Source of the DNA: Tepidiphilus sp. J10
GTDB lineage: Bacteria > Pseudomonadota > Gammaproteobacteria > Burkholderiales > Thiobacillaceae
Direction: 5' to 3'
DNA: 32,990 nucleotides
NCBI GenBank assembly: GCA_945897955.1
Contig: CAMDGQ010000041.1
Location: 1-32,990, forward strand
Shown here: positions 13,259 to 32,906 of the stretch, piece by piece
How positions within the stretch are numbered: the first letter of the stretch is position 1
Layout: every line of letters starts with the position of its first letter
Translations under genes and position numbers: made by a program
Notes under the pieces: model-generated
What the model was told of the DNA's origin: nothing
What the model saw: only the letters and a program-made list of their open reading frames with translations
Databases searched by the model: none

Positions 13259-13834
13259 CTAGACCAGTCCGGCAAAGCCCATGAAGGCGAGCGACAACAG
13301 CCCCGCCACCACGAAGCCGATCGGCGCGCCGGCAAAGGCGGCCGGCGTTTGCGCCAGCGCCAGGCGTTCGCGCAGGCCGGCGAACAGCAGCAGCACCAGT
13401 GTGAAGCCGAGCGCGGAACCGAAGCCGTAGAGCAGGCTTTGCGCGAATCCGTGCTTTTCCTGCACATTGAGCAGCGCCACGCCAAGCACGGCGCAATTCG
13501 TGGTGATCAAAGGCAGGTAGATGCCAAGCACCTGATAGAGGCCGGGGCTGGTCTTACGGATGACCATTTCGGTGAACTGTACGGTTGCGGCAATCACCAG
13601 AATGAACGCGAGAATGCGCAGATAGGAGATTCCCAGCGGCAGCAGCAGCCAGTGCTCAAGCATCCACGACGCGGCGGTAGCCAGCGTCAGTACGAACGTG
13701 GTGGCCATGCCCATGCCCAGCGCGCTGTCCATTTTCTTCGACACGCCCATGAACGGGCACAAGCCGAGGAATTTCACCAGGACCACGTTGTTGACCAGGG
13801 CGGTGCCGAGTAGCAGTAACAGGTATTCGCTCAT
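13259..13834 (-). CDS. rnfA: Rnf electron transport complex subunit A
   Basis: This 191-residue membrane subunit is homologous to NqrE, with six TM helices. The two pseudo-symmetric signatures are [20 protein letters not shown] and [18 protein letters not shown]; the Cys in each coordinates the intramembrane iron centre together with RnfE. AGGAGAA (13842-13848 complement) precedes the ATG by seven bases. It is the first gene of rnfABCDGEH. A sigma-54 promoter ends 28 bp before the ATG, giving a very short leader that still keeps the ribosome site. Confidence 0.97.
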
Positions 13835-13861
13835 GGATAGGTTCTCCTGGCTGGATGATCC

Positions 13862-13877
13862 GCAAGGCTTGTGCCAA
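13862..13877 (-). promoter_or_regulatory. Sigma-54 (-24/-12) promoter of the rnf operon
   Basis: Reading the minus strand: TTGGCACAAGCCTTGC. This has the invariant GG and GC in the correct GG-N10-GC spacing and matches the TGGCAC…TTGC consensus. Transcription would start near 13851, about 17 bases before the rnfA ATG. A NifA site lies about 110 bp upstream and an IHF consensus lies between them. Confidence 0.82.
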
Positions 13878-13905
13878 GCCGGGAATCGCCGCGCGATGCA
13901 CGCAA

Positions 13906-13918
13906 AATCAAGGTATTG
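13906..13918 (+). promoter_or_regulatory. IHF consensus site between NifA site and rnf promoter
   Basis: AATCAAGGTATTG fits WATCARNNNNTTR at every defined position. It is about 30 bp upstream of the rnf -24 element and about 65 bp from the NifA site, the usual place for the DNA bend that brings NifA to sigma-54 RNA polymerase. Confidence 0.65.
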
Positions 13919-13981
13919 CGGGCTTTCGCACCACTATGGAGCGAATTTGTCTTGTCGGAGTTGAAGCCGATGCCTGTTTTG

Positions 13982-13997
13982 TGTGAGGAATCCGACA
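13982..13997. promoter_or_regulatory. NifA upstream activator sequence (TGT-N10-ACA)
   Basis: The bases are TGT GAGGAATCCG ACA. The centre is about 139 bp upstream of the predicted rnf start and about 124 bp upstream of the predicted nifL start, within the normal range for NifA sites in both directions. It is the only such match I see in the 294-bp intergenic region. Its right half overlaps one arm of a 9-bp perfect inverted repeat (13951-13959 / 13991-13999, CTTGTCGGA / TCCGACAAG). Confidence 0.78.
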
Positions 13998-14011
13998 AGC
14001 CGAAGGAGACG

Positions 14012-14057
14012 CGCTTGCGGGCCGGTGGCGCTGGCGAAGCGGTTCGGCCCGCAAGCG
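14012..14057. repeat. Perfect 13-bp inverted repeat between the NifA site and the nifL promoter
   Basis: CGCTTGCGGGCCG (14012-14024) and CGGCCCGCAAGCG (14045-14057) are perfect complements around a 20-base loop. Weaker pairing extends outwards through AAGGAG and CTCCT. No T-tract follows. It may be a REP-like hairpin or a spacer that separates the two divergent promoters. Confidence 0.7.
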
Positions 14058-14086
14058 GACCTCCTGCGCAGCGGTAAACCGGCTTG

Positions 14087-14103
14087 CCGGCATGGATATT
14101 GCA
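14087..14103 (+). promoter_or_regulatory. Sigma-54 (-24/-12) promoter of nifLA
   Basis: CCGGCATGGATATTGCA contains GG-N10-GC with the TTGCA -12 element and a near-consensus -24 element (GGCA-G). Transcription would start near 14113, about 16-25 bases before the nifL start. The -24 region overlaps a small CCGGC/GCCGG dyad. Confidence 0.65.
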
Positions 14104-14128
14104 AAGACAGACATGCATCCACGCTTGA

Positions 14129-15664
14129 ATGATCACAATGTCCGCACCCAGCAACCTTCCGCCGCAAGTTTTCCGCCAGGCTGTCGAACAGGCCGCGCTG
14201 GCCATTTCGATTACCGATGAGCAGGCCAACATCCTGTATGCCAACCCGGCTTTCGAACGGGTAACCGGCTACCGCGCAGAGGAAGTGGTGGGGCGCAACC
14301 AGTCGCTGCTGTCCTACAAGGTCACGCCCGATCTGGTCTACGAAACCCTGTGGGCGCAACTGCGTCGGCAGCGCGCCTGGAACGGCATGCTGGTGAATCG
14401 GCGCAGCGACGGCGGCCGTTATCTGGCCGATCTGACCATCACCCCGGTGGTCGATGCCGCCGGCAAGACCAGCCATTACCTCGGCATGCACCGCGATGTC
14501 ACCGAAGTGCATCACCTGGAACGCCAGGTGCAGAACCAGAAGGCGATGATCGAATCGGTGGTCGATGCCGCCCAGGTCGCGATCTGTCTGCTCGATGAGC
14601 GCGACCATGTCGTACTCGACAATCAGGAATACAAGAAGCTGATCGGCGATCTTGGCCGCGAGCCGGTTGCCCTGTTGCTGACCCGGTTGCGCGAACAGAT
14701 GGGCGCCGAGTTCGACGCCGCGCGCGCCAGTCGCCGCGCCATCCGTCAGCGCGCGGTCAAGGTCGAGCGGCATGGCCAGCCGGCGCGCTGGTTTGCCTGC
14801 GCCGTGTCCTGGTTCGACGAGCAGGATGCCAGCGCCGATGCCTTCTACGAACCGACCAAACGCCATTACCTGCTGCTCACCGCGCAGGACATCAGCGAAC
14901 TCAAGCGCCAGCAGGAAGCGATTCGCCTGAACAGCCTGTCGGCATTGCTGGCTGAACAGGAACGCATCCAGAGTCTGCGCGAGACGCTGGCCGGAGCCGT
15001 GTTTCAGCTGGAAGGACCGCTCAATACGCTGACCGCCGCCGTGCGCCTGCTGGAACGGCGGCGCGAGGGCAACGGCGAGGAAGCCTTCGATGTCGCCATC
15101 GAAACCGCGTTGCGTGACAGTCGCGCTGCGCTCGATACATTGAGCGCCTGCATACCCGACCAGCGCGCCGAAGCCATCCAGCCGCTCAACCTGAATGAAG
15201 TGCTGCGCGATGTGCTGAAAATGAGTACCGCCGCGCTGCTCGCCGCCGGCGTCGTCGTCGAATGGCGTCCGGCGCAGGAATTGCCGGCGGTTCACGGTGG
15301 CGCAACGCAACTCGCGGCGATGTTCCGGCAACTGCTGGCCAACGCTATCGAGGCGATGAACGAACGCCGCGCCGGCGATCAGGGCCATGAACGTGTCGTG
15401 CGCCTGATCACGCTGCCGCACGCCGACCATGTCGAAGTCATCCTGGAGGATACCGGCCCCGGCATCCCCACCGAATGGCGCTACAAGGTGTTCGAACCCT
15501 TCTTCACGACCAAGGGCGCCGAGCGCGGTCATCTCGGCCTGGGTCTCTCGATGGCGCAGGACACGGTCGCGCGCCACGGCGGTCTGATCGATCTCGACTC
15601 GGATTATCGCGAGGGCTGCCGGGTGCGTGTGCAACTGCCGTTGGCTGCGGGAGGGGTGAAATGA
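14129..15664 (+). CDS. nifL: NifL, redox/nitrogen-responsive inhibitor of NifA
   Basis: This gene encodes 511 residues, close to Azotobacter NifL. PAS1 (about 14-130) is the expected FAD-binding redox sensor; its pattern [25 protein letters not shown] is typical. PAS2 spans about 140-260. A coiled helical linker leads to a histidine-kinase-like ATPase domain with the N-box ([11 protein letters not shown]), G1 (EDTGPGIP) and G2 ([19 protein letters not shown]). Where kinases have the H-box the sequence is [12 protein letters not shown], so no phosphate-accepting His is visible; NifL acts by protein contact with NifA, not by phosphorylation. The start is either 14129 or 14138 (MITM), and neither has a clear ribosome site. 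nifA starts inside the stop codon (ATGA), as expected for coupled stoichiometric synthesis. Confidence 0.95.
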
Positions 15665-17199
15665 ACGTCGATCGCGAACTTGAGCATGAACTGCTGCGCA
15701 GCGAACTGGAGACGCTGTATCAGGTCAGCCAGGTTCTGTCGCGCTCGCTTGATCTGAAGGAAACGCTGACCGCCGTGCTGCGCGTGCTGCATGACGGCGT
15801 CGGTCTGGAACGCGGCATGGTCAGCCTGGTGGAACCGGAAACCGGCGAACTCCAGGTCTCCGTCGCGCATGGCCTGGCCGACATCTTCATCGAAGAAATC
15901 CGTTACCGGCCGGGCGAAGGCGTCGTTGGCCTGATCCTGGAGGAAGGCGAGCCGATTGTTGTCGAGCGTATCGCCGACGAGCCGCGCTTTCTCGGCAAAC
16001 TCGGCCTCTATGACCCGGAACGCGGCTTTGTCGGCGTGCCGATTCGGCTCGGCCGGCAAGTGGTCGGCGTGCTCGCCGCGCAGACCGCCGAGGGCGCCGA
16101 AATCCTGCTCGAAGAATTCACTCAGTTCATGGAAATGGTCGCCAACCTGATCGGCCAGACCGTGCGCCTGACCGCCGATGTGCAGAAGGAACGCCAGGCG
16201 CTGACCGAGGAACGCGACACGCTGCGCCGCACCGTGCGCGGCCAGTACGGCTTCGACAACATCATCGGCCACACCCAGCCCATGCGGCGCGTGTTCGAAC
16301 AGGCGCGCCTGGTCGCGAAATGGAACACCACCGTGCTGATTCGCGGCGAAACCGGCACCGGCAAGGAACTCATCGCCAACGCCATCCACTACAACTCGCC
16401 GCGCGCGCGGGCGCCGTTTGTCAAACTCAACTGCGCCGCGCTGCCGGAAAACCTGCTCGAAAGCGAACTCTTCGGCCATGAAAAGGGCGCCTTTACCGGC
16501 GCCATGGTGCAACGCAAGGGCCGCTTCGAACAGGCCGACGGCGGCACCCTGTTTCTGGATGAAGTCGGCGAAGTCTCCGCCGCATTCCAGTCCAAATTGC
16601 TGCGCGTGTTGCAGGAAGGCGAACTGGAACGGGTCGGCGGCAACCGCACGATCAAGATCGACGTGCGCGTCATCGCTGCAACGCACCGCGATCTGGAGAA
16701 CGAAGTCGAGTCCGGCCGTTTCCGCGAAGACCTGTATTACCGCCTGAATGTGATGCCGATCTATCTGCCGGCGCTGCGTGAGCGCATGGAAGACATTCCC
16801 GACATCGCCCGTTTCCTGGTTGAAAAGATCGCCGGCCAGCAGTCGCGCCCGCTCAGCCTCACCGACGCCGCGCTGCGCGTACTGATGCACCACGCCTGGC
16901 CGGGCAACGTGCGCGAACTGGAAAACTGCCTGCAACGCGCCGCCGTGCTGACCGAAGCCGAAGTCATCGACCGCGACGCCATCCTGCTCACCGGCATCGA
17001 GGAACAGGTCAGCCTGAGTCGCGGCAGCATGCAGGCGGTCGATCTCGACGACCCCAACCTGGACGACCGCGAACGCGTCATCGCCGCGCTGGAACAAGCC
17101 GGCTGGGTGCAGGCGAAAGCGGCCAGGCTGCTGGACATGACGCCCAGGCAGATCGCGTACCGGATACAGACGCTGAACATCAAGGTGAAACAGATTTAG
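15661..17199 (+). CDS. nifA: NifA, sigma-54-dependent activator of nitrogen-fixation genes
   Basis: This gene encodes 512 residues from the ATG at 15661, which overlaps the nifL stop by four bases and has GGGAGGGG upstream; an upstream open extension lies inside nifL and is not coding. The N-terminal GAF domain spans about 20-180. The AAA+ domain has Walker A GETGTGKE (229-236), the sigma-54 contact loop GAFTGA (276-281), Walker [12 protein letters not shown] and the R-finger region. The C-terminal Fis-type helix-turn-helix ([20 protein letters not shown]) binds TGT-N10-ACA sites, several of which occur nearby. The linker before the HTH has no Cys motif, so this is the NifL-controlled, not the oxygen-sensing, class. 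Likely autoregulated through the sigma-54 promoter ahead of nifL. Confidence 0.96.
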
Positions 17200-17201
17200 C
17201 C

Positions 17202-17429
17202 ATGCCTGCCTTCAAACCCTGCCAGGGCCAGACCGCCTGCCGCGACGATGGCGAAACCTGCCTCACCTGCGGCCGCAGCCTGGCCGAGATCGCACAGTCG
17301 CGGAGCCTGATCGACACACTGGCCGATCTGGTGGTGAAACAAGGCTATGACAACGTCGAGGAATTTGCCGGTTATGTGGCCGCCAAGGTAGTCAAGAAGG
17401 TCCGGCATCGACAGGCAAAACCGGACTGA
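17202..17429 (+). CDS. Small Cys-motif protein (DUF1289-like), downstream of nifA
   Basis: This gene encodes 75 residues starting two bases after the nifA stop. The N-terminus has four Cys (7, 13, 20, 23) in the pattern C-x5-C-x6-C-x2-C followed by GRSLAEIAQ. This resembles the C…C…CxGCGRT-EEI signature of DUF1289 proteins and could bind zinc or Fe-S. The C-terminal part is helical and basic (AAKVVKKVRHRQ). The tight spacing places it in the nifLA operon. Its last 38 bases overlap the 3' end of the convergent Rieske gene. The function is unknown; a role in nitrogen fixation is inferred from position only. Confidence 0.65.
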   Translation: MPAFKPCQGQTACRDDGETCLTCGRSLAEIAQSRSLIDTLADLVVKQGYDNVEEFAGYVAAKVVKKVRHRQAKPD

Positions 17430-17790
17430 TCGCGCTGACCCGCCAATCGGCAATGCCGATTTCACCGTTCTCTTCGTAGATGGAAACCGGGCGCAGTTTC
17501 TCGCCTTCGCACATCGTGCTGACCGATGTGCCGGTTTCCGGCGTGTAGACGATGCCGTGCATCGAGCAGCGCAAGTACCGGCCGCTGTGGTCGAACACCA
17601 GATCCTTCTCGCAGTCCAGCGGGCGCGGCATGTGGACGCAGCGGTTGATGTAGGCGTAGCAAATGCCGCCGAAGCGTATCAGCAGGCATTCCTCTTCGCG
17701 CCCCTCGAAAGTCATTTTCAGCTTGCGATGGCAGCCTTCCGCAAGCGCTTCGCTTGCGCAGAACGGAAACCTTGGCGCGTCTGTACTCAT
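17392..17790 (-). CDS. Rieske-type [2Fe-2S] ferredoxin-like protein
   Basis: This small soluble protein (132 residues) has a complete Rieske motif: C51-V-H53 in NRCVHMPRPLD, and C75-S-M-H78 in LRCSMHGIVYTPETG. There is no signal peptide or TM helix and no oxygenase domain, so it is a stand-alone cytoplasmic electron carrier or a regulatory Rieske protein. The ATG overlaps the stop of the preceding 122-aa gene (ATGA), so translation is coupled. It is the last gene of a three-gene unit whose upstream promoter has sigma-54 and NifA elements. It might supply electrons to or protect nitrogenase; that is inference. The 3' end overlaps the small Cys gene after nifA. Confidence 0.88.
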   Translation of the reverse strand: MSTDAPRFPFCASEALAEGCHRKLKMTFEGREEECLLIRFGGICYAYINRCVHMPRPLDCEKDLVFDHSGRYLRCSMHGIVYTPETGTSVSTMCEGEKLRPVSIYEENGEIGIADWRVSAISPVLPVDAGPS

Positions 17791-18155
17791 GGCATTCCGC
17801 CGAGTCCGGGCGAGAGCTTGAACAACTCCGGATAAACGCGGGTGTAGTCGATCAGGCTTTGTACGGTGCGCGGCGTCAGTTCCTTGATCGCGACCCAGAT
17901 GCGGAAGGCATGTTCGTTCGGACGGGCGAGCGCGGCCGGCAAGGCGGCCCAGGCCGTCCAGTCGATCCCGTTCAGGTGCGTTTTGACATCCGCCGGCAGG
18001 TTGTGCGCGGTTTGCGACAGCGTGCCGAGCAGTTGGAAAGTCTGCAAACGGGTCAACCGGCTGGCGAAAAACTCCCGCTCATCGAGCTCGTCGGCCAGCA
18101 CCAGGATGTCCTGCCCGGTCTGCTCGATCAACTTCAACATGGCTGCGGTCAACAT
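17787..18155 (-). CDS. HepT/DUF86-like helical protein without the usual RNase motif
   Basis: This gene encodes 122 residues, all helical. The segment LTRLQTFQLLGTLSQTAHNLPADVKTHLNGIDWTAW reads like the DUF86/HepT core in which 'NLEIIGEA…LP…hP.IPW' is conserved. In HepT toxins the next stretch holds an R-x4-6-H-x-Y catalytic motif; here it reads ALARPNEHAFRIWVA and the motif is not intact. No MntA-type nucleotidyltransferase antitoxin gene is adjacent. It is therefore more likely a repurposed protein than a toxin. It sits between the unrecognised 186-aa gene and the Rieske gene with a four-base overlap to the latter. The start may be 18155 or 18140. The family link is a by-eye similarity. Confidence 0.6.
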   Translation of the reverse strand: MLTAAMLKLIEQTGQDILVLADELDEREFFASRLTRLQTFQLLGTLSQTAHNLPADVKTHLNGIDWTAWAALPAALARPNEHAFRIWVAIKELTPRTVQSLIDYTRVYPELFKLSPGLGGMP

Positions 18156-18197
18156 GGGTCGTCAACCCCGCTCCTGCGCAAGCGCCAACATGCGCAC

Positions 18198-18758
18198 CTA
18201 CACTGCCCCGTGGAAGCCACGTTTGGCATTCGTGGTAAGGGTCAACGCGACTTCCAGCGCTACCTGCTCGTAGGCCGGCCGATAACCCAGTGCGGCCTGG
18301 TAAAGCGTGTTGACCTTCTCGGCGCTGCTCTGGCCCTTGAAATCGCTTTTTTCCAGATTCAATTCGTCGACCAGTTCATTCCAGACCAGACCATCCGACA
18401 GCGGCAGCAGCGTGAAACCGATGCCCGCAACCTCAACCCGCATCGGTTTCGCAATGTTGACGACATAAAGAATCACCACCAGGCCTGGCGCGAAGAACGG
18501 TTGATACTTCTCGACGAAGGCCTTCAGGTGGTCAAGTTCATCGAGCGAGCCCGCGACAAACAACAACTGCGTCGAGTCAGCCAGCAGTGCCGAGCCGATC
18601 ATCGTTGCCAGCGGCGGCTTGCGACGGCCCATCGCATCGGCGACTTCACCCTCGATCAGGACCAGGTCGCCGCGATAGGCTTGCAAGCCGTGACCGGCGC
18701 TGTCCTTGAAGTTGCTGTTGTAGAGCAAGCCCTGGGTTTCAAAGGTATCGAGCAGCAT
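18198..18758 (-). CDS. Unrecognised protein, first gene of a predicted NifA-regulated unit
   Basis: This gene encodes 186 residues starting MLLDTFETQGLLYNSNFKDS. An open extension up to 18938 exists, but it crosses a sigma-54 promoter (18793-18808) and a NifA site (18886-18901), so the start at 18758, 25 bases after the predicted transcription start, is preferred. I do not recognise the family. There is no signal peptide; one strongly hydrophobic strand-like stretch (PGLVVILYVVNIAKP) and a GSALLADSTQLLFVAG segment suggest an alpha/beta soluble fold. There are no Cys and no obvious metal or nucleotide motif. It is followed by the HepT-like and Rieske genes on the same strand. Its control points to a nitrogen-fixation role, but the activity is unknown. 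Confidence 0.72.
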   Translation of the reverse strand: MLLDTFETQGLLYNSNFKDSAGHGLQAYRGDLVLIEGEVADAMGRRKPPLATMIGSALLADSTQLLFVAGSLDELDHLKAFVEKYQPFFAPGLVVILYVVNIAKPMRVEVAGIGFTLLPLSDGLVWNELVDELNLEKSDFKGQSSAEKVNTLYQAALGYRPAYEQVALEVALTLTTNAKRGFHGAV

Positions 18759-18792
18759 GAAAGTGTTCCCGGATTGGCAAATAACCGGATAC

Positions 18793-18808
18793 AGCAATTT
18801 GCGGGCCA
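18793..18808 (-). promoter_or_regulatory. Sigma-54 (-24/-12) promoter upstream of the 186-aa gene
   Basis: Reading the minus strand: TGGCCCGCAAATTGCT. It has the GG-N10-GC spacing and departs from the 16-base consensus at only two positions. Transcription would start near 18783, 25 bases before the ATG at 18758. Confidence 0.75.
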
Positions 18809-18885
18809 GCCACCGCTCAGATGCAACAACGTCGGAAATATGCGGCTTTATCGGCTGACGAAGCACTGACAACGACTTGCTGCTC

Positions 18886-18901
18886 TGTCGCAAAAACGAC
18901 A
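18886..18901. promoter_or_regulatory. NifA upstream activator sequence (TGT-N10-ACA)
   Basis: TGT CGCAAAAACG ACA is centred about 110 bp upstream of the predicted start from the sigma-54 promoter at 18793-18808. It is the second TGT-N10-ACA site in this nif region that is correctly placed relative to a -24/-12 element. Confidence 0.75.
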
Positions 18902-18994
18902 ACTTCCATTCGGGCGTGAAGGTTTCTGACGAAAGCATCGGCAGGAGTACGACCGCTGCGACGGATATTCTCTACTGGAGGAACACGGATGGGA

Positions 18995-22499: not shown

Positions 22500-23011
22500 G
22501 CACGAACCGAGTTGCGGATAAACCTGGCCGGATCATTAGCGATTGACGGGCGATTACGGAAAATCCGAAATGCGGGGGGTATCGGCGGTCAGATTCCGTA
22601 GAAATCTGGCGTTGAGCGCCTGACGGAAGCCGCATGGCACCGAGAGTCGGCTCTGGGTCGCTTTTCCATGTGGCTATTCAATCGGCGCCACTGATTTCGT
22701 CGTCCTGAGCTTTGGCTATGCAGCGGGAGCTGTCATTGGCGAGGCTCTGAGCGGCGGCTTACGGAGTCGTTCAGCCTACGAACCGACTACCCAATGCCGG
22801 TACGTCGGCCGGTAAAGCCGCTCGTCCCGATCTGGTTCCAGCCGTTCACGTATGACCGCTTTCTTCGGAAGCGAAGGAGCCACCGTCCCGTTTCTGACAC
22901 TGTCGCCTACGGTCAGCCAATGACTGCAATTTGGTCTTGACCTGACTGAACTGGATTCGAGTGAAAAGGCTGCTGCCATGTAGTATCTCAACCATTCTTC
23001 CAGGGGGACGC
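22500..23011. other. Long intergenic stretch upstream of cas3 without a recognisable gene
   Basis: No open frame here looks coding on either strand; the short frames lack ribosome sites and family motifs. It must hold the cas promoter, but I see no convincing -35/-10 pair; the best -35-like word is TTGACC at 22937. The composition is less GC rich than the cas genes. It may be decayed sequence at the edge of the CRISPR locus. Confidence 0.4.
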
Positions 23012-25597
23012 ATGCAAGCGTGGGGAAAGTTACAGACCGAGAAAGAGAACGGTGCCGTTCTGGATCGCTTGTCTCTGGCTGACCACTGCGTTGACGTGGC
23101 CAGTGTGTTCCGGGAATTGTGTGACCTCCCCGCCATTCGGCGAAATCTGGACAGGGAGTCGGGTTTTTCGCTTACCGAAACCCAGTTGGACCGACTGGCC
23201 GTGTTCGCCCTGCTGCATGACCTGGGCAAATGCAACTGGGGTTTTCAGGCCAAATCCGACCCCAAAGCGAAGCACGTTGCCAGCCATATCCGCGAAGTCT
23301 CTCCGCTCTGTTTCCTCGAAGAGTTGCGCGAGCGCGCCGTTCAAGCCCTTGGCCTGGAAGAGGTGGCGGGCTGGTTCCATGAGCCCGAAATTGATTTGTT
23401 CCGCCTGCTTCTGGCTGCGGTCTCCCATCACGGCGAACCCGCTTTCAATTTCGAATTGGATGGTTCCATCGATGTCGACCGCTGGGCCGGTTATTGGCGG
23501 GAACATGACGGCTATGACCCTTTCGCGACCTTGGCTGAACTGGGCCAGGTAGCGAGAGCCGCTTTTCCCGCTGCGTTTCAGGGGCACACCGAGCTGCTGA
23601 TCCTCACCGCTGCCCTGGAACACCGTTTCGCCGGTCTGCTCATGTTGGCCGACTGGCTGGGCTCGCATCGGGAGGCGTTCTTCCCCTTTCATCAGGAAGG
23701 CAGTCGCATACCCTGGGCGCGGGCGCAGGCCCGCAAGGCACTGGCCGCCGTAGGACTGGACGTGCAGCAAGCCCGGCGCCACCTTGCGGCCGGTCTGCCA
23801 GCCTTTGGTCAGGTGTTCAACCTCCAGGCCGACCCCAAGCCGCTCCAGACGGAACTGGCCCGGGCCGACCTGCCGGCGCTGCTCATTGCCGAATCCGACA
23901 CCGGTTCCGGCAAGACCGAGGCGGCCCTCATGCATTTCCTGGCGCTGTTCGCCTCCGGGGAAGTCGATGGCCTTTATTTCGCCCTGCCGACGCGGGTCGC
24001 GGCACGGGAGCTCTACGGCCGGGTCCGGGCGGCCATGCGGCGAGTTTTCGGGGACGATTGCCCACCAGTTCTGCTTGCGGTTCCGGGCTATGCCCAGATA
24101 GACGGCGAACCAACCACCTGCCTGCCGGCGTCCACAGTGCTTTGGCACGAAACCGACCAGATCAAACGGGAAAGAGCCTGGTCGGCGGAACGACCCAAAC
24201 GCTTTCTCGCCGCGCCGGTGGCCGTGGGCACCATCGACCAGGCGCTGTTTTCCAGCATCCAGGTGCCCCATGCCCATTTGCGCGCCGCCTGTCTGGACCG
24301 TTCTCTCCTGGTGGTGGACGAGGTTCATAGCTCCGACGTGTACATGCGCTACCTGTGCCGGCGTCTCCTCGCCCGCCATCTGGCGGCCGGCGGCCGGGCG
24401 CTGCTGCTCTCCGCCACCCTCGGCAGCGCAGCCAGGGCGGAATACCTTTCGCCGGGCAGCCGACAGTCTGGCCCAGAGAACTACGATCTCGCCGCCAACC
24501 AGCCCTATCCCGCGCTGTGCGCGCCTGGCACGGCGCTACGCCACCTGCCCGACCCGGCGGCGCGGTCCAAACGGGTGAGCATTCAGCCTCTGGCCATCCT
24601 GGAAACGCCGGAAACCCTGTTGCCGGAATTACGTGCGGCCGTGGCGGCCGGTCGTCGGGTGATGCTGGTGCTCAACACCGTGGCCCGTGCCCTCTCATTG
24701 GCCCGACTGGCGGACGCGGACCCGGTGCTGGCGCCGGCCCTGTTTTCAGTGCAAGGCCAGGCCTGTCCCCACCACGGCCGCTATGCCCGCCCCGACCGGG
24801 AGTTACTGGACGCGGAAGTCAGTAAGCGCATGGGCAAGGACTCGGCTGGTGGCGCCCTCCTGCTCATCGGCACCCAGACTCTGGAACAAAGCCTGGACAT
24901 CGACGCCGACTGGCTCATCACCGATCTCTGCCCGATGGATGTGCTCCTGCAACGCATCGGCCGTCTGCACCGCCACGACCGGGGCGAGCGGCCGGCGGCG
25001 GTGTGCAGCGTCCTGCTGCCCGAGGAAACGGATTTCTCCATCTTCCTCAAGAAGAACGGGGAGATGGGACGCAGTGGTCTGGCCGGCTTCGGCTTCGTCT
25101 ATGAAGACCTGCGCATCCTGCAACTCACTCGGAACTGGGCCGCAGGCCAGCCGGAAATCGAAATCCCGCGGGACAACCGGCGCCTGGTGGAATCCGCCAC
25201 TCACCCGGAGCGGTTGGCTACTTTGGCCGGGGCGAAATGGGCGGCCCATGCCGGACGGTTGGAGGGCGGTGGCATGGCGAAGAACAAGGCTGCCCACGAC
25301 GCCCTGATCCCCGAAAAACACTTCGGCGACTTCCTGTTTCCCCGTGACCTTGAAGCCAATCTGACCACCCGTCTGGGCCTGAACGATCGAACCATTTCCC
25401 TGGGCGGCAGCTACCTCAGCCCCTTCGGAAAAGCCATCGAAGAGCTCAATTTACCCGGCCATCTCGCCAGGGGCCTGGCAGTCGATCAGGCTCATCTGGT
25501 GAGACTTGATGAGCGTAACCTGCTCATCCATGTCGGCACCCTGGTATTTCGCTATTCCCGTTTTGGACTGGAGAAACTCGATGAATCTGCTGCTTGA
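23012..25597 (+). CDS. cas3: Type I-E CRISPR-associated nuclease-helicase Cas3
   Basis: This gene encodes 861 residues. The start at 23012 has AGGGGGAC upstream; an in-frame ATG at 22961 lacks support. The N-terminal HD nuclease domain has His25, His69-Asp70 (LLHDLGKCNWGFQ) and HH near 145 (AVSHHGEP). The superfamily 2 helicase follows: motif I SDTGSGKTEAA (about 294), motif II VVDEVHSS (about 435), motif III LLLSATLG, and motif VI QRIGRLHRH (about 648). Cas3 is recruited by Cascade after target recognition and degrades the displaced DNA strand. HD-then-helicase order and the I-E gene set downstream fix the subtype. All key residues I can locate are present. It overlaps cas8e by 17 bases. Confidence 0.97.
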   Translation: MQAWGKLQTEKENGAVLDRLSLADHCVDVASVFRELCDLPAIRRNLDRESGFSLTETQLDRLAVFALLHDLGKCNWGFQAKSDPKAKHVASHIREVSPLCFLEELRERAVQALGLEEVAGWFHEPEIDLFRLLLAAVSHHGEPAFNFELDGSIDVDRWAGYWREHDGYDPFATLAELGQVARAAFPAAFQGHTELLILTAALEHRFAGLLMLADWLGSHREAFFPFHQEGSRIPWARAQARKALAAVGLDVQQARRHLAAGLPAFGQVFNLQADPKPLQTELARADLPALLIAESDTGSGKTEAALMHFLALFASGEVDGLYFALPTRVAARELYGRVRAAMRRVFGDDCPPVLLAVPGYAQIDGEPTTCLPASTVLWHETDQIKRERAWSAERPKRFLAAPVAVGTIDQALFSSIQVPHAHLRAACLDRSLLVVDEVHSSDVYMRYLCRRLLARHLAAGGRALLLSATLGSAARAEYLSPGSRQSGPENYDLAANQPYPALCAPGTALRHLPDPAARSKRVSIQPLAILETPETLLPELRAAVAAGRRVMLVLNTVARALSLARLADADPVLAPALFSVQGQACPHHGRYARPDRELLDAEVSKRMGKDSAGGALLLIGTQTLEQSLDIDADWLITDLCPMDVLLQRIGRLHRHDRGERPAAVCSVLLPEETDFSIFLKKNGEMGRSGLAGFGFVYEDLRILQLTRNWAAGQPEIEIPRDNRRLVESATHPERLATLAGAKWAAHAGRLEGGGMAKNKAAHDALIPEKHFGDFLFPRDLEANLTTRLGLNDRTISLGGSYLSPFGKAIEELNLPGHLARGLAVDQAHLVRLDERNLLIHVGTLVFRYSRFGLEKLDESAA

Positions 25598-31438: not shown

Positions 31439-31472
31439 TAATTCGATATAGTTCAATCAGTTATGAACTAGA
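31439..31472 (+). promoter_or_regulatory. Very short CRISPR leader
   Basis: This AT-rich stretch lies between the cas2 stop and the first repeat. It contains a 7-bp dyad, TAGTTCA (31449-31455) and TGAACTA (31464-31470). Its repeat-proximal end GTTATGAACTAGA resembles GTTATGTTTAGA at the same place in the E. coli I-E leader. A half-match to IHF (AATCAG) is present, but no full site. Functional leader sequence may extend into cas2. Confidence 0.6.
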
Positions 31473-32842
31473 GCTTCCCCCGCCCACGCGGGGATCGACC
31501 CGCACCAGCAATAGCCATCTTCTCTCCGACGCTGCTTCCCCCGCCCACGCGGGGATCGACCTTTGACGTATCCATCTTTGCTGGCGTCCTTGAGGCTTCC
31601 CCCGCCCACGCGGGGATCGACCCGTGGCGAAGGTGAACATGCTTTTGCGTAAAGAGCTTCCCCCGCCCACGCGGGGATCGACCCTTGAACCAGCCATCCA
31701 GCATTTGCGCCTGGCCGCTTCCCCCGCCCACGCGGGGATCGACCCCGCCCGCCGAACCCGATGAGGATGCCGACGACGCTTCCCCCGCCCACGCGGGGAT
31801 CGACCCCTATACCGCCACCACGACGCCCGCACGGATCGGCTTCCCCCGCCCACGCGGGGATCGACCTCTGGTTTGATCCACTAGATGATTGCGGTCCTAG
31901 CTTCCCCCGCCCACGCGGGGATCGACCTTCTTTCCGGCATCCCCAGCGCGCCCTCCAGCGGCTTCCCCCGCCCACGCGGGGATCGACCTGCACCCTGTGG
32001 CATAAAGAACTTGTAAGTACAGCTTCCCCCGCCCACGCGGGGATCGACCCCGGGCAGGCGAAGCCGTCGCAGAGCAGGAAGTGCTTCCCCCGCCCACGCG
32101 GGGATCGACCCGGTTAGCGCTTGTTATTTAATACCGTCGATGGGCTTCCCCCGCCCACGCGGGGATCGACCTGCTGGAAAGCGTTGGCAATCTGCTCAAT
32201 TCAGGCTTCCCCCGCCCACGCGGGGATCGACCATAAGAAGGTTCCTGCTGAGTTGAAACCTAAACGCTTCCCCCGCCCACGCGGGGATCGACCCGTGCCG
32301 TCTTTCCTCGTGTGCGCCGGGATCCAGCTTCCCCCGCCCACGCGGGGATCGACCCTGGACGCCATGCACCTTGCCGTCGGTATCCATGCTTCCCCCGCCC
32401 ACGCGGGGATCGACCCTGTGTGAGCGACAGCGTGTGATTGGCTACGGTGCTTCCCCCGCCCACGCGGGGATCGACCCCTCATTCATCTTGGTCATGACTG
32501 GCAGCATGCGCTTCCCCCGCCCACGCGGGGATCGACCTCCATTTGACGCAAAATTACATAACCGGCAGTCGCTTCCCCCGCCCACGCGGGGATCGACCCC
32601 AGGCGGAGGATGAAGATCGGCTTGACCAGGAGCTTCCCCCGCCCACGCGGGGATCGACCTGCGCTGAAAAGGTGTCGGCCGAAGTCATGCCGGCTTCCCC
32701 CGCCCACGCGGGGATCGACCTGTCAGGCGATTGATCGGACGCCATTTGCACGTGCTTCCCCCGCCCACGCGGGGATCGACCCGCTATCCGGTACAACCTG
32801 CATCCAACCTGATAGCTTCCCCCGCCCACGCGGGGATCGACC
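31473..32842 (+). CRISPR. Type I-E CRISPR array, 23 repeats and 22 spacers
   Basis: A 28-base repeat starting GCTTCCCCCGCCC and ending GCGGGGATCGACC occurs 23 times at a strict 61-base period (first at 31473, last at 32815). The spacers are 33 bases, or 29/32 under the usual I-E convention. All copies I read are identical, including the last one. The stem CCCCCG…CGGGG and the 3' handle GATCGACC parallel the E. coli repeat, so the array is transcribed on the plus strand with the leader at the cas2 side. Apart from one A, every spacer-proximal base is C or T. The numerous Pro/Arg/Gly-rich open frames over this stretch are translations of the repeats and not genes. Confidence 0.99.
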
Positions 32843-32906
32843 TAACCTATCTTTAACACCCCGCCCAACACACCCTTAAAAAACATAAAGTTACAACAAG
32901 CATTTC

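Follow-up and report, generated by a model that had tools for sequence, protein, structure and literature searches.

A probable NifA-controlled operon beside nifLA in Tepidiphilus sp. J10 and its nitrogenase-associated protein family X186

NifA-regulated accessory genes are a known kind of nitrogen-fixation gene, and the nearest precedent for the locus described here is pnfA of Pseudomonas stutzeri A1501 (PST1325), which depends on NifA and sigma-54, carries a -24/-12 promoter and a TGT-N10-ACA site and is reported only from diazotrophs (PMC2820453). In Table 2 of that paper, a pnfA mutant shows 23% of the wild-type nitrogenase activity. The present study concerns X186, a gene for a protein of 186 amino acids (aa) in Tepidiphilus sp. 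J10, together with the two genes that follow it, which encode a 122-aa protein and a 132-aa Rieske-domain protein. The window, i.e. the whole stretch of DNA that was analyzed, has a length of 32,990 nucleotides and corresponds to contig C41 of a draft genome in 128 contigs (completeness 92%, contamination 4.9%). X186 resembles pnfA in its control elements and in being restricted, in the genomes sampled, to nitrogen fixers, and several X186 members are divergent from nifHDK, as is pnfA. However, PnfA is described as a 31.7 kDa protein similar to UspA or ETF alpha (PMC2820453), whereas X186 has no Usp or ETF match in Pfam. The identity of X186 with PnfA was ruled out on size and domain content only, by this description of PnfA.

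Two homologues of X186 occur in Paraburkholderia phymatum STM815, where Bphy_7752 and Bphy_7807 are annotated as hypothetical proteins; they belong to a second subfamily and are approximately 28% identical to the X186 of the window. Bphy_7752 is followed by ankyrin and zinc-ribbon genes, whereas X186 in the window is followed by the 122-aa and Rieske genes. In the nif cluster of Dechloromonas aromatica RCB, Table 4 of PMC2907700 lists a nitroreductase of 558 aa near draT and nifH, along with a 'ferredoxin, subunit of nitrite reductase' of 122 aa. The latter may be a Rieske protein. Both gene types also recur beside X186; the passages on these genes name no X186-like gene and give no function. 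For Azoarcus BH72, hypothetical genes with RpoN or NifA sites are listed in PMC3916325, and none of those listed could be linked to X186. No paper in the literature searched, in which subscription journals were mostly uncovered, could be tied to the X186 family by name; an older description is possible, and the family appears to be undescribed in the sources searched. Among the papers listed by one such search, the tag Bphy_7752 occurs only in PMC8305402.

A sequence-only reading of the window had proposed that X186 and the two following genes form a NifA-controlled operon that might serve nitrogen fixation, perhaps in the supply of electrons to nitrogenase or in its protection. In this study, the proposal was followed up using promoter comparison, genome surveys, published expression data and predicted structures. 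The three genes very probably constitute a NifA-controlled nif accessory operon. The promoter architecture and its conservation, the restriction of X186 to nitrogenase genomes in two genome samples and the NifA dependence of X186 homologues are strongly supported.

Promoter architecture and its conservation

The features of the locus are as follows.

14129-15664, plus strand: nifL (TIGR02938, 635 bits; cut-off 242)
15661-17199, plus strand: nifA (TIGR01817, 683 bits; cut-off 529), convergent with the operon
17392-17790, minus strand: 132-aa Rieske [2Fe-2S] domain protein (PF00355 and motif CxH...CxxH at residues 51-78)
17787-18155, minus strand: 122-aa all-helical protein with weak HEPN/HepT fold resemblance, without the HEPN catalytic motif
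18198-18758, minus strand: X186, 186 aa, unnamed family restricted to nifD genomes in the samples; no curated family
18759-18938, minus strand: open frame 5' of the X186 start, probably non-coding, holding the promoter and the NifA site
18793-18808, minus strand: sigma-54 -24/-12 promoter TGGCCCGCAAATTGCT, a conserved block
18886-18901, no strand assigned: NifA upstream activator site TGT-N10-ACA, with TGT and ACA invariant in the aligned relatives

X186, the 122-aa gene and the Rieske gene all lie on the minus strand, separated by a gap of 42 nt and then joined by a 4-nt ATGA overlap, and the set adjoins and converges on nifLA, in agreement with the layout first proposed; both nifL and nifA were verified by the models given above. 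The end of the Rieske gene (17392) overlaps the end of a 75-aa open reading frame (ORF; 17202-17429) located after nifA. This ORF begins two bases past the nifA stop and has a weak DUF1289 match below the cut-off.

On the minus strand, 18808-18793 reads TGGCCCGCAAATTGCT, which differs from TGGCACGNNNNTTGCW by a single mismatch (11/12 consensus positions) and has the correct GG-N10-GC spacing, so that the near-consensus promoter proposed ahead of X186 is confirmed. The sequence of 18886-18901, TGTCGCAAAAACGACA, fits TGT-N10-ACA, and the 77 bp between the two elements agree with the distance of about 80 bp originally noted. The X186 transcript is predicted to start near 18783. When both strands were scanned, the X186 promoter was the sole -24/-12 site in the window with a score of 11/12, and TGT-N10-ACA sites were found at three positions (3310, 13982 and 18886). 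Chance expectation was estimated from 100 first-order Markov shuffles of the window, which contained means of 0.5 -24/-12 sites of score >=11 and 3.46 TGT-N10-ACA sites; in no shuffle was a site of score >=11 accompanied by a NifA site 50-150 bp upstream. A single element of either type is expected by chance in 33 kb. As neither element is rare alone, the decisive evidence is their conservation across relatives.

Relatives were collected by one scan of a genome collection with the 28-row X186 alignment and a single degenerate peptide pattern, which yielded 204 confirmed relatives, of which the best 80 were kept. Together with four plasmid loci and the window, these gave 85 loci (84 without the window, L035-L118), and 8,500 random 250-nt windows from the same loci served as the background. 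Within 250 nt of the start, a -24/-12 site of score >=9 was present in 67/85 loci (8.2% of the background), one of score >=10 in 53/85 (2.3%) and TGT-N10-ACA in 31/85 (4.7%), counts that are not independent since related loci share descent. In 56 of the 67 cases, the -24/-12 site lies 50-60 nt ahead of the start codon. Among the best 80 loci only, 63 had a score >=9, 49 a score >=10, 29 a TGT-N10-ACA site and 27 both elements. Both elements are therefore conserved in relatives of the window's gene.

The upstream region was aligned for the window and L039, L040, L041 and L043, which are four of its five closest relatives (68-76% identity). The activator-site core and the -24 and -12 elements stand out as invariant blocks amid drifting DNA. 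In L042, which was left out of this alignment (70% identity), the promoter is weaker (9/12, at -50) and the NifA site lies farther upstream, at -188. A third invariant block was observed at 18840-18845 (CCGCAT on the minus strand), between the activator site and the promoter, and is possibly a site for a DNA-bending protein.

The elements fall in an open frame that could otherwise be read as an N-terminal extension of X186. In the two closest relatives, L039 and L040 (75 and 76% identity), the reading frame contains no start codon ahead of the Met at 18758, which supports a start of X186 at this position, as in the sequence-only reading; L041-L043 (68-71% identity) do carry upstream in-frame start codons, as does the window. 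The frame at 18759-18938 is thus probably non-coding.

Similar elements precede nifH in the same genome (a -24/-12 site of score 10/12 and two TGT-N10-ACA sites). Elsewhere in the window, rnfA (minus strand; TIGR01943 over the cut-off) and nifL (plus strand) diverge within 13834-14129 around the TGT-N10-ACA site at 13982, which is flanked on each side by a -24/-12 site of score 10 (13876, minus; 14088, plus). Since the two genes share this central site with a promoter on each side, both may be NifA-controlled from it.

Distribution and NifA dependence of the family

Two genome samples were surveyed, an order sample of 300 genomes (X186 relatives at an expectation value, E, of 0.001; nifD at E 1e-100) and a phylum sample of 388 genomes (X186 by profile, E 1e-5), with at least three genomes in common (G000, G024 and G264). 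X186 was found in 36/300 genomes of the order sample and nifD in 47/300 (46 over the cut-off); all 36 fell within the 47, and X186 occurred in none of the 253 genomes without nifD. Counted by genus, the numbers were 20/134 for X186 and 25/134 for nifD. In the phylum sample, X186 was present in 13/388 genomes and nifD in 41/388, all 13 again lying within the 41. The hypergeometric P is approximately 10^-36 (order) and 10^-14 (phylum), or 10^-19 and 10^-11 by genus, with kinship ignored in each case. The homologues are thus confined to nitrogenase genomes in both samples (36/36 and 13/13) and are not a family found mostly in genomes without nitrogenase. In 24 of the 36 genomes X186 and nifD lie on one contig, and in 16 of these they are no more than 5 kb apart. 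Nine of the order-sample X186 genomes have the subfamily of the window, and 27/36 have the second subfamily.

The membership of Bphy_7752 and Bphy_7807 in the family was established with the A1 profile (E ~1e-70, six sequences searched). The two are 99% identical to each other, and each diverges from one of the nifH copies. Table 1 of PMC8305402, which compares nifA-mutant with wild-type nodules, gives them log2 fold changes of -11.54 and -11.11, the lowest finite values among the 142 symbiotic-plasmid genes listed, although their exact values are uncertain owing to the near-identity of the copies and the very low counts in the mutant. A further 11 of the 142 listed genes are given as NA because the mutant had no reads. 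In the same table, nifD has a value of -10.05 and nifH (Bphy_7753) of -7.40. The nif cluster from Bphy_7728 to Bphy_7755 is reported to be upregulated in nodules (PMC5748707), and the main text of the rpoN study PMC5979394 does not mention Bphy_7752. The NifA-dependent transcription expected for X186 is therefore borne out by Table 1 of PMC8305402 for the P. phymatum homologues, and not for the window's gene itself. Together with the conserved elements, it supports control of the family by NifA and sigma-54.

The X186 protein and the products of the following genes

The X186 of the window matched no family at E 1 in Pfam or NCBIfam. When 28 members were compared with Pfam (the NCBIfam search covered the window's X186 only), the matches were weak and scattered, with at most 2/28 members per family and a best E of 0.00049 to a beta-propeller repeat. 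The statement that X186 is not a recognized nif gene thus holds for these curated families. By sequence, there was no credible relative in the PDB (best E 0.18). The AlphaFold2 model, built from 46 sequences, is confident (predicted local distance difference test, pLDDT, 94.5; predicted template-modelling score, pTM, 0.89), and the comparison with known folds proposed by the sequence-only reading was performed with Foldseek, which returned no match at E 0.001 among PDB and viral models. An McrBC chain, the top PDB match (E 0.0022), was not credible as a structural relative, with a template-modelling (TM) score of 0.27. The absence of a match for a predicted model is not proof of a new fold. 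Eight residues are invariant across both subfamilies (M1, R29, G30, P49, N127, E128, K141 and K148). In terms of Cys and His, only one column was conserved in more than 30% of rows of the 28-row alignment (His, 46%), and none in the 46-row alignment; X186 is accordingly unlikely to be an electron carrier of the Fe-S or haem type, having no conserved Cys or His ligand residues.

The 122-aa protein had been read as HepT-like; its resemblance to HepT is weak. Its model is all-helical (pLDDT 90.7, from four sequences only). In the Foldseek search, the HEPN structures 7ae9, 7ae8 and 6m6u ranked high (probability 0.89-0.97) but with weak E values of 0.39-0.55 (E 0.39-0.45 and TM ~0.5 at a probability of 0.96-0.97), and the best match by E value was an unrelated cyclophilin; there was no match to HepT in Pfam. 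The closest known system for this protein is HepT of the MntA-HepT toxin-antitoxin pair. The HEPN catalytic motif, R-x4-6-H, is absent in all nine sequences of the family alignment (A4), and the direct neighbours of the 122-aa gene are X186 and the Rieske gene instead of an MNT nucleotidyltransferase gene. Membership of a HepT toxin-antitoxin system was therefore rejected for want of both motif and partner gene, and only a weak resemblance in fold is retained. Homologues were found in 18/300 order-sample genomes, of which 17 have both nifD and X186, so that the co-occurrence with nitrogenase holds for these 17 and fails for G135, which has no nifD.

The 132-aa protein is an ordinary Rieske-domain protein, as first proposed (PF00355, 29.1 bits against a cut-off of 20.3; CxH...CxxH present). 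A nif-specific Rieske family is not supported: matches occur in 13/47 nifD genomes and, the window's own gene aside, are 24-42% identical and scattered.

The window also contains a CRISPR-Cas locus, with Cas3 at 22961-25597 (TIGR01587 and TIGR01596 over the cut-off) and a downstream direct-repeat array at 31456-32843 (61-nt period, 21 registered copies).

Gene neighbours and candidate functions

Neighbours were counted from ORFs picked by a simple conservation rule, at loci some of which end near X186; the names RnfE, RnfH, NifU, NifS, NifM and flavodoxin were verified on one representative each. The most frequent same-strand neighbour was a flavodoxin gene, located within 300 bp after X186 in 35/80 of the best loci, and in 8/80 rnfE-rnfH lie ahead of X186 within one run. 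In L048 and L051 (Azoarcus and Parazoarcus), X186 comes after nifM and closes a run that also includes nifU and nifS, whereas in loci of the Methylobacter type X186 is followed by a gene for an AAA+ ATPase or a rhodanese. Beside members of the second subfamily there are genes for truncated haemoglobin, Rieske protein, nitroreductase or ankyrin. In Paraburkholderia sprentiae (L154, 4491-5555) and Methylococcus sp. EFPC2 (L036, 9542-10564), the gene directly upstream of X186, divergent from nifH, encodes a group II truncated haemoglobin; in the latter, a response regulator gene is found two genes upstream of X186. In a further 42 loci, truncated haemoglobin occurred within ~1.5 kb in seven (six distinct genomes), and Rieske, nitroreductase and response regulator genes were near X186 in four, six and four, respectively. 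Among the 47 nifD genomes, long-chain flavodoxin was over the cut-off in 8/9 with the window's subfamily, 1/27 with the second subfamily and 2/11 without X186.

An ATPase of ~570 aa (AAA+; PF00004 on L117) was observed after X186 in L101, L103 and L117, and an ATPase of similar start sequence, judged by eye, after 122-aa homologues in L124, L126 and L130. L130 (G135:C12:26327-26680) is the homologue from the nifD-less genome, and it precedes the ATPase there too. The occurrence of the ATPase after both gene types suggests that nif-linked genes of unknown function form a broader set shared between loci.

As its neighbours are often donors or redox proteins, as X186 has no redox ligands of its own and as the subfamily of the window tracks one donor type, X186 is tentatively assigned to the step between the electron donor and the Fe protein. 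It would act there as a cofactor-free partner protein that binds either NifH itself or a low-potential donor, which would be a NifF-type flavodoxin in the subfamily of the window and probably another carrier in the second. In free-living cells that fix nitrogen under microaerobic conditions, it would keep electrons going to nitrogenase, not oxygen. Within the operon, the Rieske protein might be an auxiliary carrier or redox sink, with the helical 122-aa protein as an adaptor. Taken as a whole, the explanation of a NifA/sigma-54-dependent operon whose X186 represents an undescribed nitrogenase accessory family acting at the donor step is plausible while falling short of probable, and protection and maturation are close rivals to the donor-step mechanism.

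A number of observations weigh against this explanation. No X186 was found in 11/47 of the order-sample nifD genomes; one of the genus of the window, G129, has nifD and a long-chain flavodoxin but no X186. Among plasmid records (X186 at E 1e-5, nifD at E 1e-100), nifD was present in 239 (Rhizobium 125, Sinorhizobium 76 and others) and X186 in only ten (Paraburkholderia five, Cupriavidus two, Bradyrhizobium two and Methylococcus one). The flavodoxin-neighbour count is inflated by Gallionellaceae, which contribute at least 25 of the 80 best loci, and the flavodoxin link (8/9 against 3/38 other nifD genomes, Fisher p 4e-6) ignores kinship and is uncorrected for relatedness. Furthermore, the second subfamily, with 27 of the 36 X186 genomes, has long-chain flavodoxin over the cut-off in that single genome, and in the window's own genome the flavodoxin gene lies on another contig (C82). 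Five X186 genomes (G030, G058, G217, G264 and G277) have no rnfC over the cut-off, for which reason X186 was rejected as an Rnf component and is not considered part of the Rnf route. The literature searched yielded neither biochemistry nor a mutant for any member of the X186 family. The companion genes are also rarely retained: at E 0.01 in tblastn, 122-aa relatives occur in 3/84 loci (L039, L049 and L093) and Rieske relatives in 1/84 (L039), and L040, as close to the window as L039, has neither. These counts do not support the three genes as a fixed unit, and the proposed three-gene operon is poorly conserved as such. In L039, X186 is followed on the same strand by genes for a SagB-type nitroreductase, a 151-aa protein and the 122-aa protein, and then, ~4 kb further, by the Rieske gene; the 122-aa gene lies directly after X186 in L033 and nearby in L006.

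In the protective alternative, X186 would form a NifA-induced module with truncated haemoglobin, Rieske protein and nitroreductase against oxygen or nitric oxide, for example by binding oxidized nitrogenase or aiding scavenging. The haemoglobin genes adjoining X186 in Methylococcus sp. EFPC2 and P. sprentiae and near it in the further loci, as well as the recurrent Rieske and nitroreductase genes, are consistent with such a module, and pnfA, a different NifA-dependent gene beside nifH, is reported to alter nitrogenase activity under microaerobic conditions, but not under plain anaerobiosis (PMC2820453). However, the commonest same-strand neighbour is flavodoxin and not haemoglobin, and X186 has no conserved metal-binding residue, which leaves protection somewhat unlikely. 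It is unlikely that X186 is instead a maturation factor similar to NifM, NifW or NifZ that matures or stabilizes the Fe protein or MoFe protein: its place at the end of the nifU-nifS-nifM runs, where the models were over the cut-off on representatives, and its proximity to nifD point in this direction, but flavodoxin is more often the direct neighbour, and X186 is missing from many nitrogenase genomes which still need maturation.

A regulatory or signalling protein that senses redox or nitrogen status and tunes the activity of nitrogenase or the expression of nif genes accordingly would account for the response regulator genes near X186, and the invariant charged residues R29, E128, K141 and K148 could bind a ligand. 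Nevertheless, neither Pfam nor NCBIfam revealed a known sensor or DNA-binding domain, and with no structural match at E 0.001 this role is quite improbable. A chance origin of the elements, with X186 as an unrelated gene near nifLA, would agree with the frequency of each element alone in such DNA and with the absence of X186 from G129, but is extremely improbable given the conservation of both elements, the confinement of X186 to genomes with nifD in both samples and the NifA dependence of its homologues.

With regard to the donor-step assignment, the lack of X186 in plasmid records of Rhizobium and Sinorhizobium would be in keeping with a protein that is needed for free-living fixation only. 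The X186 family, with its two subfamilies, its restriction to nitrogenase genomes in the samples and no detected structural relative, might then be needed for full nitrogenase activity outside a plant host, as a hitherto missing component that is matched to the donor and helps to deliver electrons to the Fe protein; Rhizobium and Sinorhizobium would be able to do without it, since suitable conditions would be provided by the nodule. This wider role is put forward only as a possibility. The transfer of nitrogenase into crops relies on knowledge of the accessory genes that sustain its activity. The X186 family, whose members in the legume symbiont P. phymatum are among the most strongly NifA-dependent genes, can be tested in culturable diazotrophs and is a direct candidate for a factor that has been overlooked so far, whether it serves electron supply, maturation or protection from oxygen.

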